From the NCBI GenBank assembly GCA_022825665.1, contig JAJDWI010000149.1, positions 1 to 64,000 of the forward strand: a stretch of 64,000 bases of DNA. Direction: 5' to 3'. Source of the DNA: Candidatus Poribacteria bacterium (lineage in GTDB: Bacteria > Poribacteria > WGA-4E > WGA-3G). Under the pieces are notes generated by a model. That model was not told the DNA's origin. It saw only the letters and a program-made list of their open reading frames with translations, and made no database searches. How positions within the stretch are numbered: the stretch's first letter is position 1; every line of letters starts with the position of its first letter. The position numbers and the translations under genes were made by a program. This document shows positions 24,414 through 29,147 of the stretch, in pieces.

Positions 24414-25820
24414 ATGAACACAAAACGAGGTGATTTGACTCAAGGTAGTCTCTTACATCATCTGATTCAACTTGCAGTACCGATAACATGTGGATACATA
24501 CTCCAAGATGCGTTCAATATTGTTGATATGATTTTTGTCGGCAGATTGGGACCAGCAGCAATCGCAGCTGTCGGCATAAGCGGTAATTTGTTGCGGTTAA
24601 TTGCTGTTTTATCTCTCGGTATATCAACGGGTGCGGGGATAATGGTCTCCCAATACCTTGGCGCAAGGAATCACGCACAAGCAGGATACGTGGCGATGCA
24701 GGCTATACTACTTGCCTTTTTTGCCGCCATAGGAATTGGTATTATCGGGTATCCATTGGCTGAATTCGGTTTACGTGCCGTCCGAACAACAGACATTGAG
24801 GTTATACAACTTGGTACAACCTATATGCAGATTATTCTTATCGGCATTAGTACGATGTTTCTTTCAATGACGCTGGGTTCAATCTTCCGTGCGGGTGGTG
24901 ATGCTGTTACACCTATGGTTGTGTTGATAATATCCACCTTGGTTAACATTGGACTTGATCCGCTACTGATATTTGGTTTGTGGAAATTCCCAAAATTGGG
25001 TGTGGCAGGATCGGCTTATGCAACACTAATCGGTAGAGGTATCGGTGTTGTTATTCTGCTTTTTCTCTGTTTTAGTGGTAAAGCTCCTATATCATTTCGT
25101 AATGTATTATTGCGCGCTGATCTTGTAGAAATGCTTGACATTTTAAGGTTAGGAATTTATAGTTCTATGCAAGGGTTCTGGCGACATTTGTCGCGGCTCG
25201 GATTCCTTTGGGTCATCGGTCCTTATGGAAAATTTGCAGTTGCTGCGTATACGATCTGTATGCGTCTCAGAATACTGGTTATGAACCCAGGTTTTGGTAT
25301 AGCCAATGCTGTTGCGCCTGTTGTTGGTCAAAATATGGGGGCAAATTTGATAGAACGCGCAGAAAAATCAGCTAAAATTGGAAATATACTGGCAACAACG
25401 GTAATGACAGGAATTGGAATATTATTCTTAGTTTTCCCGCAAGTGTTCATACGAATATTTACCGACGACCAAGAAGTGATAAAGATTGGTTCTGTATACA
25501 TTCAATTCTTGTCTCTCACTTTTGGTTTTATAGCGTTTTCACTGGTATTAGGTAAAGCACTCAACGGTGCAGGTGATACTTTCTCACCAATGATTATTAC
25601 TCTCGCCGCACAGATTGGTGTGGGTTTAGGTCTTGTTATTTTATTATCACATTTTATCGGTCTAAACGGTGTTTGGATCGGAATTGCACTTTCTAATGTT
25701 GTTCAAGGCATTGCTATGTGGATATGGTATAGAACAGGCAAATGGAAAACAATAAAACTAATAAATGGTAGAGGAAATTCTACCGGAAAGGTGGTGAAAA
25801 ATGGCGTACAAAGGATATGA
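24414..25820 (+). CDS. MATE family multidrug/solute efflux transporter
   Basis: 468 aa, twelve predicted membrane helices in two bundles. Family features: GSLLHHLIQLAVPITCG, VDMIFVGRLGPAAIAAVGISG, ALGISTGAGIMVSQYLGA and the second half AYTICMRL...NAVAPVVGQNMGA. Exchanges cationic drugs or metabolites for Na+ or H+; the substrate is unknown. The ATG follows AGGATATTA. The 3' end overlaps the rhodanese gene by 20 bases, so the two are probably co-translated. Confidence 0.93.
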   Translation: MNTKRGDLTQGSLLHHLIQLAVPITCGYILQDAFNIVDMIFVGRLGPAAIAAVGISGNLLRLIAVLSLGISTGAGIMVSQYLGARNHAQAGYVAMQAILLAFFAAIGIGIIGYPLAEFGLRAVRTTDIEVIQLGTTYMQIILIGISTMFLSMTLGSIFRAGGDAVTPMVVLIISTLVNIGLDPLLIFGLWKFPKLGVAGSAYATLIGRGIGVVILLFLCFSGKAPISFRNVLLRADLVEMLDILRLGIYSSMQGFWRHLSRLGFLWVIGPYGKFAVAAYTICMRLRILVMNPGFGIANAVAPVVGQNMGANLIERAEKSAKIGNILATTVMTGIGILFLVFPQVFIRIFTDDQEVIKIGSVYIQFLSLTFGFIAFSLVLGKALNGAGDTFSPMIITLAAQIGVGLGLVILLSHFIGLNGVWIGIALSNVVQGIAMWIWYRTGKWKTIKLINGRGNSTGKVVKNGVQRI

Positions 25821-26634
25821 AAATCCTCATCTGGTTATTTCTACAGAGGAACTGAAAAATAATCTTGATGTTGAAACGTATTGCATCGTTGATACACGTC
25901 CAACACATGAATATATCCAAGGACATATACCAGGGGCACTTCACCTTGATTTGTTTGGATTAAGTTTGATCAATACAGGTAAAGAGACATTAGATTCATT
26001 TATGTGTATGATTGCATATCTATTTCAACAACGTGGTATTGATTCTGAGAAAACTATAATTTGGTATGATAATATCTCAGGTATATATGCATCTCGAGGA
26101 TTTTGGTTTTGTGAGTATTTAGGTCATTCCAAAACTCGTTTATTAGATGGTGGTTTCAAAGCTTGGTTAGCTGCAGAGGGACCTGTCAGCACAGAAGGTG
26201 TTGAACCTCCTGTAGTAACACCATTTCCCATAAAAACAGCACACGAATTACACATGGAAGCGAATCTGATATATGCAAATCTGACACAAGAGGATTTCGT
26301 TGTACTTGACACACGCACAGATGATGAACACTATGGAAGGGTTGCACGTGCAGAACGGGCAGGGGCAATACCAAAGTCAACCCATATTGAGTGGGTTAAC
26401 AATCTGGACGAAACAGGTGCTTTTAAACCCGCAACTGAATTGCGAGAAATGTATGAGACGGTTGGTATCACACACGATAAACAGGTGGTGTGCTACTGAC
26501 AGGGAGGTTACCGTTCTTCCCAAACCTATTTAGCGTTGCGACTAATTGGGTATCCAATGGTAAGTAACTATATTGGGTCTTGGAAAGAATGGGGAGACCG
26601 GCTGGATTTGCCGGTTGAAATTCCTGAAGAATAG
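25801..26634 (+). CDS. Rhodanese-type sulfurtransferase with in-frame TGA at the catalytic Cys; candidate selenoprotein
   Basis: Two-domain thiosulfate/3-mercaptopyruvate sulfurtransferase, 277 aa if TGA at 26497-26499 is read through. Domain 1 (about 1-130) has VDTRPTHEYIQGHIPGALHL and is normally inactive; domain 2 carries LDTRTDDEHYGRV. The active-site loop then reads VVCY-(TGA)-QGGYRSSQTYLALRL, so the stop falls exactly on the catalytic Cys (residue 233). The same frame continues to NYIGSWKEWGDRLDLPVE, the typical C-terminus, and ends at TAG 26632-26634, two bases before the convergent hydrolase. Start ATG follows AAAGGTGGTGAAAA. Selenocysteine is the preferred reading; a recent nonsense mutation is the alternative. 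Confidence 0.75.
26497..26499 (+). other. Candidate selenocysteine TGA codon
   Basis: TGA at the position of the catalytic Cys of the rhodanese, same frame before and after. Two overlapping downstream stem-loops could be a SECIS: 26502-26521 (GGGAGG / CTTCCC, 8-base loop, 2 bases after the TGA), or 26519-26550 (CCCAA / TTGGG with TTAG / CTAA, loop CGTTGCGA with G as second loop base). The second fits the usual distance from the codon better. No SelA/B/D gene is in the window. Confidence 0.65.
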
Positions 26635-26636
26635 GA

Positions 26637-27371
26637 TTATAACGTCTCTACAAAATCAACGCATATTTTAGCAACTTCTGCTGGACATTCATGGGGTAAA
26701 TAGTGTCCAGCATTCGGCACCCATAATGTCTGAATATTTGGGTTTGGTGGAATGCGTAACTTCTTTTTAGTTGTTTCATTTTTACCCATTCCACCAAAGA
26801 CTTCATATATGGGTATTGATGCTTGTTCAAGATAAGTGTAGGCATCAAATTCTTTGACAGTTGACCAAAAATTTCCCCAGATACTTTGCTCAAAACAACT
26901 TCGAGTCTCAGTTGACTTTTTCTGTATCTTGGTTATTTCTATTTGAGAAAGTGTTCCGTAAAACCTTCCCCCATCAAACGTACTGCCAGCAGATGAAAGA
27001 CTCGTCCATCCCTCAAGTAAAACAAGTCCTGTAACACTTGCTGAATTTCTGGCAACCTCCATAGCAACCATACCACCAAGGCTGTGTCCTACGAGAATAA
27101 TCTTATCAATTTCAATAAAGTCTACAAGTTTTAATACATCATCTGCAAGATTAGATATGGTGAATGCTTTGGTAGGTGTACTACTCTGTCCATGACCTCT
27201 AAAGTCCAATGTGATACAACGTTGATTACTCGGTAAATTATCAATTACAGACTGCCAATCTTCTGAATCACAGCCAGTACCATGTAGGAACAGTAGTGGA
27301 ATCCCAGTACCACCAGAATCAGCATACGCCATCTCTCCCCAACTTGTAGTGAGATAAGTTATGCTATCCAT
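26637..27371 (-). CDS. Alpha/beta hydrolase
   Basis: 244 aa, alpha/beta hydrolase fold. Nucleophile elbow GHSLGGM, oxyanion-type HGTGCDSEDW after the first strand, TLDFRGHGQSS, and the catalytic His in NAGHYLPHECP. No signal peptide. The exact substrate (ester, lactone or C-C bond) cannot be told. Ends two bases from the rhodanese stop on the other strand. It is 10 bases downstream of moeA. Confidence 0.9.
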   Translation of the reverse strand: MDSITYLTTSWGEMAYADSGGTGIPLLFLHGTGCDSEDWQSVIDNLPSNQRCITLDFRGHGQSSTPTKAFTISNLADDVLKLVDFIEIDKIILVGHSLGGMVAMEVARNSASVTGLVLLEGWTSLSSAGSTFDGGRFYGTLSQIEITKIQKKSTETRSCFEQSIWGNFWSTVKEFDAYTYLEQASIPIYEVFGGMGKNETTKKKLRIPPNPNIQTLWVPNAGHYLPHECPAEVAKICVDFVETL

Positions 27372-27381
27372 ATATACCCAT

Positions 27382-28593
27382 TTAATCCAAAAATTGTGCG
27401 TCCACTATTTCGCCTGATTGTAGAGACGCACCAGATGGAATGGTGATCAATCCGTTGGCTAAAACAAGAGAATGTAATATACCCGATCCCTGTGGACCAG
27501 TTGTTTTAGCAATGTACTTACCATTCTCTTCAGTCAGGATTGCACGCATGTAATTGACTCTTCCATCTTTGTTGGTCACATCAGATGCCAAGACAGCATT
27601 AAAGGTTGGACGTAATAGATTGGTGTGTCCAGCCATTTTTAAAAGTGCCGGACGTACAAAGAGTTCAAATACTACGAGAGAAGATACAGGATTACCCGGC
27701 AACCCAAAAATGGGTTTTCCGTCAATTTCACCATAAGCCTGTGGTTTTCCCGGTTTCATCGCTACACGCCAGAAGTTCATCTGACCCAATTTTGTCAAGA
27801 CATTTTTCACTATATCGTGTTCACCGACAGAAACACCGCCACTTGTAATCAGTGCGTCAGCTTTCGCAATGGATTCACGGAAGATACGCTCTGTTTCCGC
27901 TTCATCATCGGGAGCGATGCCCATATCTATCGGAATCCCACCAGCATTCTGCACTTGTGCATAGATTCCATATCGATTACTATCCCGTATTTTACCCGGT
28001 TTCAAAGGTTCACCAAGTGGTGTAAGTTCATCACCAGTCGAGACTATGGCAACTTTCGGTTTACTATATACTGACGCTTCAGCACAATTAAGAGAAGCCA
28101 TCATGGAGACTTCTGGAGGACGAAGCACTTTACCCGGAGATATAACACAGTCTCCCATGTTTACACTCTCACCAGTAAAACGGACATTTTCGTTTTTATC
28201 TACACTTTCTAAGATGTTGACCTTATCTCCAACAAGTTCTGTTACCTCTTGCATGACGACAGCATCAGCACCTTCTGGCATCATAGCACCTGTCATAATC
28301 CGTGCAGCATGTCCACTTAAAATTTGTTTTTTTGGGGCATACCCTGCAGCGATAGTTTCCACAACTGATAGCACTGTAGGATTTTCTTCGGTTGCATCTT
28401 TCACATCTGTTGACCGTACAGCAAAACCATCCATTGCAGAATTGTCAAAAGGTGGGATGTTTTCTTTTGCATGTAGTTCTTCAGCAAGTACATAACCTGA
28501 ACATTCAAGTATACCTCGTTTTTCTGTCGGTAGGACAGGGATACTTTCCAACATCTGTTGACGTGCTTCTTCAACACTTAGCATTAAATTCAC
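27382..28593 (-). CDS. moeA: Molybdopterin molybdenumtransferase
   Basis: 403 aa. Inserts Mo into adenylylated molybdopterin in molybdenum-cofactor synthesis. Clear MoeA features: FDNSAMDGFAVRS near the N-terminus, RIMTGAMMPEGADAVVMQE, the TGDELTPLGEPLKPGKIRDSN strand-loop, ITSGGVSVGEHD, and GLPGNPVSSLV in the molybdopterin-binding domain. Full length for the family. No Mo-enzyme is in the window. Start at the ATG after the AGTGGAGTGAATTTA leader. Confidence 0.95.
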   Translation of the reverse strand: MNLMLSVEEARQQMLESIPVLPTEKRGILECSGYVLAEELHAKENIPPFDNSAMDGFAVRSTDVKDATEENPTVLSVVETIAAGYAPKKQILSGHAARIMTGAMMPEGADAVVMQEVTELVGDKVNILESVDKNENVRFTGESVNMGDCVISPGKVLRPPEVSMMASLNCAEASVYSKPKVAIVSTGDELTPLGEPLKPGKIRDSNRYGIYAQVQNAGGIPIDMGIAPDDEAETERIFRESIAKADALITSGGVSVGEHDIVKNVLTKLGQMNFWRVAMKPGKPQAYGEIDGKPIFGLPGNPVSSLVVFELFVRPALLKMAGHTNLLRPTFNAVLASDVTNKDGRVNYMRAILTEENGKYIAKTTGPQGSGILHSLVLANGLITIPSGASLQSGEIVDAQFLD

Positions 28594-28652
28594 TCCAATC
28601 TTCTTATCTACTTGTAACTATTACAGAATATATTCTTCTTTTCCATAGTCAT

Positions 28653-29147
28653 TTATGTCGCATGTCCAATGAGTAGAACTGCCGCAGGTAGAGATGTTTC
28701 CACCGCTTTTTCAAAAGCCCAATCTATATGACCTATATCCTCATCTATTTCTAACATCTGGTATGGTAAATTCCATGCTTTAAGTGTTGGTTCAAGGAAT
28801 GTTGCAACAGAGTCAACCCATTTCCCTTCAGCATCCCGATTATTATAACCCCTATATCCTATGAATACAACAACTGGGATTTGCATGTTAAACACAGTGC
28901 CTCGGAATGCATCACCAGCTTCAAGGAAACCAGTATTTTGAATAATAATTACAGGTTTCTTACCTCCGATATATAATCCTGCAGCGATTGCGAATGCCTC
29001 ACCTTCGCGAGTTACAGTAATTACCTCAATATCATGCTCTTCACGTAACAGTTCATATATTCGCGCACTACCGTTGTCTGGTACTCCAATAGCATGGGTG
29101 ATATTCTGTTTTTTCAATACATCCACTATTTTTTGTGCTGATGCCAT
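28653..29147 (-). CDS. Thiamine-diphosphate enzyme PYR-domain subunit (sulfopyruvate decarboxylase alpha-like)
   Basis: 164 aa, the length of a stand-alone TPP-enzyme PYR domain, as in sulfopyruvate or phosphonopyruvate decarboxylase alpha (ComD). GVPDNGSARIYELL, VTREGEAFAIAAGLYIGG (with the TPP-activating Glu) and IIQNTGFLEAGDAF match. The partner PP-domain subunit (beta) should be adjacent, but the neighbours are acs and moeA. It may act with a beta subunit elsewhere or as an unrelated regulator. The AGGATACTT leader precedes the ATG. Confidence 0.78.
   Translation of the reverse strand: MASAQKIVDVLKKQNITHAIGVPDNGSARIYELLREEHDIEVITVTREGEAFAIAAGLYIGGKKPVIIIQNTGFLEAGDAFRGTVFNMQIPVVVFIGYRGYNNRDAEGKWVDSVATFLEPTLKAWNLPYQMLEIDEDIGHIDWAFEKAVETSLPAAVLLIGHAT

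Follow-up and report, generated by a model that had tools for sequence, protein, structure and literature searches.

A conserved in-frame TGA predicted to encode selenocysteine at the catalytic position of a two-domain rhodanese in Poribacteria

Results

The window, i.e. the whole 64-kb stretch of Poribacteria DNA that was analysed, carries on its plus strand at 25801-26634 a single frame of 277 residues if its only in-frame TGA (codon 233, 26497-26499) is translated as selenocysteine (Sec): MAYKGYENPHLV...KQVVCY-U-QGGYRSSQTYLALRLIGYPMVSNYIGSWKEWGDRLDLPVEIPEE*, terminated by a TAG at 26632-26634. Under the standard code (table 11) the ORF halts at 26499 after 232 aa, which agrees with the shortened enzyme that the original prediction expected from annotation. 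The product belongs to the two-domain rhodaneses (TST/SseA-type sulfurtransferases): the Pfam Rhodanese profile matches in two stretches (E 1.3e-35) and the best solved-structure match in phmmer is the Azotobacter vinelandii rhodanese RhdA (1e0c, E 9e-41, residues 10-274 aligned). In this alignment the 1e0c loop CQTHHR lies on UQGGYR (26497-26514, plus strand; UxxG motif), and codon 233 therefore occupies the position of the catalytic cysteine, exactly where the TGA had been proposed to lie. As in COG2897/SseA proteins of the TST type, the active-site loop comprises six residues with the nucleophile first and an arginine last, and a catalytic residue is found in the second of the two rhodanese domains only. 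The N-terminal domain (25840-26172, plus strand; Pfam stretch 14-124) appears non-catalytic, as inspection of its WYDNISGIYASR loop revealed no cysteine; such a Cys-less N-terminal loop is usual for two-domain rhodanese proteins. Three narrower families were considered and rejected: 3-mercaptopyruvate sulfurtransferase SseA (NF008557) scored 102.4 bits against an equivalog cut-off of 250, with the loop UQGGYR instead of CGSGVT; the rhodanese-related (seleno)protein family NF041203, which comprises single-domain Sec proteins with a CxU motif, scored 41.9 bits against a cut-off of 115; and TsoB (NF045694) scored 24.8 bits against 805.

Upstream, a MATE-family transporter gene (24414-25820, plus strand; Pfam MatE, E 5e-57) overlaps the start of the rhodanese gene by 20 bases, an overlap that had been correctly predicted. 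The MATE gene has matches in 46 related loci and is common beside the rhodanese in related Poribacteria. The downstream gene at 26637-27371 encodes an alpha/beta hydrolase and lies 2 bases behind the rhodanese TAG, the distance originally given; its orientation had been misjudged, as it lies on the minus strand and the two genes converge, so that the TAG faces the stop and not the start of the hydrolase gene. Further downstream on the minus strand (27382-29147) we found genes for MoeA and for a short protein with a TPP-enzyme N-terminal domain, which recur near the rhodanese in several Poribacteria loci. The neighbourhood gave no functional lead: the neighbours are unrelated in non-Poribacteria lineages, the MATE gene is treated as a neighbour and no selenium genes adjoining the rhodanese were seen in the loci examined. 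In two deeper Poribacteria a gene for seryl-tRNA synthetase, the enzyme that loads serine onto tRNA-Sec, is located upstream of the Sec rhodanese (L101, 1550-2941; L107, 488-1819), which may be a coincidence. A scan of the window for other TGA-interrupted frames yielded in-frame neighbouring genes and short chance-like frames alone, as judged by eye from their coordinates.

The in-frame TGA is conserved. With the source genome counted, 67 of 194 relative genomes contain an orthologue with a single TGA, namely 58 of the 59 genomes of the family and nine others of the order, down to 61% identity. A Cys orthologue occurs instead in G060, G063 and G065, which all belong to one further family of the order. 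Among 81 aligned loci of named genome records, the window's own included, 71 carry TGA at codon 233; these span Poribacteria at 61-96% identity as well as Latescibacterota, Gemmatimonadota and Nitrospinota at 51-59%. The remaining 10 loci have TGC or TGT at this codon, and cysteine is the sole alternative residue, with no tryptophan or any other amino acid. The original prediction would have been refuted by close relatives bearing TGC together with independent damage in this copy; what we found are close relatives with TGA, and Cys is confined to orthologues at a greater distance (50-57% identity, including the Poribacteria loci L117 and L123), as is typical for a Sec/Cys pair. A conserved in-frame UGA matched by cysteine in other orthologues is a hallmark of bacterial selenoproteins. 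The source is a draft assembly of 170 contigs, in which a TGC misread or misassembled as TGA might be suspected, yet this idea has practically no probability left since the identical base recurs in many independent MAGs, which stem from different studies and include the single-contig chromosomes OX639992, OX638316, OX639973 and OY282374.

To explain a tree of 87 proteins, five Sec/Cys changes are required, and well supported branches force four or more of them, as judged from a quick method and a tree with long branches. Two remote rhodaneses from two other bacterial families share the TGA at this codon (L133, 40% identity, IIPF-U-QGGYRSA; L134, 30% identity, IITY-U-QGGIRAA), and therefore the Sec form would extend beyond the Poribacteria branch. 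One genome, G116, was considered as a TAG-interrupted relative and discarded: the catalytic Cys is present and the aligned stretch is free of stops.

We then compared selection on both sides of the TGA, using 1596 sequence pairs from Poribacteria: pN/pS amounts to 0.085 (0.040/0.470) after the TGA versus 0.185 (0.135/0.729) before it. Purifying selection beyond the UGA is characteristic of bacterial selenoproteins. Apart from the TGA, the 81 aligned loci are free of internal stops. Although the TGA does break the frame under the standard code, a pseudogene with a nonsense mutation at the catalytic codon is very hard to reconcile with these data: the same TGA is kept at 61-96% identity across 67 genomes, which refutes this reading, and the strong constraint downstream together with the lack of further stops likewise excludes it. 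The earlier argument against random pseudogene damage is thereby borne out.

The source genome (4.53 Mb, 95% complete) encodes the machinery for selenocysteine insertion. Profile searches identified SelA (612 bits), SelB (354 bits) and SelD (362 bits), and a tRNA-Sec (UCA) is located immediately behind selB (78 bits); ARAGORN independently reports a tRNA-SeC with anticodon tca. All sel genes on which the original prediction depended are accordingly present. SelA scores above cut-off in 58 of the 67 genomes with a TGA rhodanese, and SelA, SelB and/or tRNA-Sec do so in 64. Six of the nine TGA genomes without above-cut-off SelA contain SelB and/or tRNA-Sec, and one contains SelA fragments; in G004 (81% complete) and G010 (73% complete) neither SelB nor tRNA-Sec was found. 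Genomes of the same order with a Cys rhodanese retain SelA. We also observed that the genome's SelD (L021, G000:C115:56502-57428) is itself a candidate selenoprotein with an in-frame TGA (KCAG-U-ASK); it is followed 16 nt past the TGA by a 5-bp hairpin with the loop CGGGT and G as its second loop base, which at -5.1 misses the bSECIS energy threshold.

At the RNA level, codons 232-243 show an observed/expected ratio of synonymous change of 0.50 in Poribacteria. For codons 232-245, 23 diverse TGA rows give a ratio of 0.69 and 10 Cys rows one of 0.98, the Cys set being small and the values uncorrected for the tree. A second stretch with few synonymous changes, located close to the 3' end of the gene at 26581-26616 (codons 261-272, SWKEWGDRLDLP), has values of 0.62 in TGA forms and 0.97 in Cys forms. 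Shuffling of synonymous codons revealed excess folding in the Poribacteria TGA rows at codons 225 and 233-234 and, strongest, at codon 245 (z -2.66, the lowest of 66 gene windows); the excess is absent from Cys rows and weak in 14 TGA rows outside Poribacteria.

Two stem-loops past the TGA had been proposed as possible SECIS elements. Folding in the window does support such structures, all on the plus strand, but not one fixed SECIS. Directly behind the UGA lies a stem-loop at 26501-26521, part of a candidate SECIS region (window MFE hairpin 26502-26521, -9.3 kcal/mol); its consensus pairs at 26501-26517 are formed in 97.7% of cells across 57 loci, show no covariation and are too invariant to be tested for it. 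A second hairpin, at 26524-26551 (-7.8 kcal/mol), is spaced 34 nt from the UGA and has G as the second base of its 8-nt loop CGTTGCGA. It agrees with the published bSECIS model, which according to the review PMC13188914 calls for a loop of 3-9 nt with G within the first two bases, a spacing of 16-37 nt and an energy of at most -7.5 kcal/mol. The window thus fits this model, if marginally, but the model holds for only 31% of TGA loci compared to 17% of codon-shuffled controls. The same review states that a subset of selenoprotein genes fails this model. A longer conserved hairpin spans 26535-26568, reading GTTGC...GTAAC in the window and GTTGC...GCAAC in the majority of relatives; it corresponds to the z of -2.66 at codons 245-259 in Poribacteria; 84.5% of its cells are paired, with modest covariation (1/500 shuffles). 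With 55-68 distinct TGA sequences as input, RNAalifold returned a consensus of just 3 pairs and no single covarying SECIS fold, and Rfam had no matches at 25700-26800. RNA-level constraint around the TGA is present, and no one precise conserved SECIS fold emerges from it.

Discussion

The position of the Sec codon, its conservation, the decoding machinery and the selection past the TGA are established at the level of sequence, and on these grounds UGA codon 233 of this two-domain rhodanese (RhdA/SseA type) very probably encodes selenocysteine, in place of the catalytic Cys of the C-terminal domain. The lack of a fixed SECIS structure in the RNAalifold and bSECIS-model analyses could speak for a real stop that releases a 232-residue regulatory protein, or for near-cognate readthrough of the UGA as another amino acid such as Trp. 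We consider this improbable: the last 44 codons carry the catalytic loop and are nevertheless under tighter constraint than the rest of the gene, only Cys alternates with TGA in the aligned loci, and the genome has the Sec machinery.

Regarding function, the catalytic Cys of rhodaneses takes up sulfane sulfur and then hands it on (see PMC9369223). By analogy, a sulfurtransferase role is probable for the Sec rhodanese of Poribacteria. SelB and tRNA-Sec would decode UGA 233 as selenocysteine; the selenolate could accept sulfane sulfur from thiosulfate or a persulfide donor, giving an enzyme-Se-S intermediate, and the sulfur might then be passed to an acceptor thiol, more quickly or with easier release than in a Cys enzyme. 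The Sec residue would also be expected to withstand irreversible over-oxidation. A different function for the same Sec enzyme is conceivable, though we regard it as unlikely: it could serve chiefly as a selenium carrier that provides perselenide to SelD, or as a peroxide or persulfide reductase, rather than as a thiosulfate sulfurtransferase. TST rhodaneses load selenium in vitro, including A. vinelandii RhdA, the nearest solved structure (cited in PMC9369223), and most selenoproteins are thought to have redox roles (PMC9312934). On the other hand, the fold and the active-site loop are those of an ordinary rhodanese, and the lack of adjoining selenium genes in the loci examined does not favor a carrier; apart from this, the gene neighbours do not discriminate between sulfurtransferase and selenium carrier or reductase. 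Still more doubtful is a combination of two departures, in which a SECIS deviating from the standard bacterial model (the UGA hairpin plus the longer hairpin at +38 to +71, with its apical loop ∼49 nt away) would go together with selenium or persulfide redox handling instead of plain sulfur transfer.

The Sec forms and the Cys orthologues of the same order, whose genomes have SelA, would constitute a natural series for studying the benefit of Sec to a sulfurtransferase. The selenoprotein appears to be a fixed trait of sponge-associated Poribacteria, and automatic annotation would truncate it. In the literature covered, which was incomplete, we found no report linking Poribacteria with selenoproteins.

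The kind of selenoprotein is already known: Sargasso Sea data had yielded a Sec form of the rhodanese-related sulfurtransferase COG2897 (SseA) by 2005 (PMC1088965), and this form was relisted in the GOS survey (PMC2398784), included in a review (PMC9312934) and listed as 'form 4' with the motif UxxG in another (PMC13188914). The Poribacteria protein is likewise an SseA-type rhodanese with Sec, and the published UxxG fits its UQGG; for the published representative, MCY3690685.1, the likeness is one of family and motif description. The accessible parts of these sources present few sequences and give no lineage, whereas here the Sec form was traced across Poribacteria and neighbouring lineages. 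What is new is the predicted lineage-wide fixation of Sec and its apparent repeated exchange with Cys. The single-domain Sec rhodaneses NF041203 and TsoB (NF045694) are rhodanese selenoproteins as well, and the CxU motif of NF041203, with a Cys two residues ahead of Sec, recurs as CYU in most Poribacteria. RhdA of A. vinelandii (1e0c) shares the full-length two-domain fold but has the loop CQTHHR instead of UQGGYR, with Cys as catalytic residue where the Poribacteria rhodanese is predicted to have Sec. The source genome also encodes a Cys paralogue (G000:C48, L002), again a two-domain rhodanese, which shows ∼30% identity to the Sec form and bears the loop CRIGERSS with a TGC codon.
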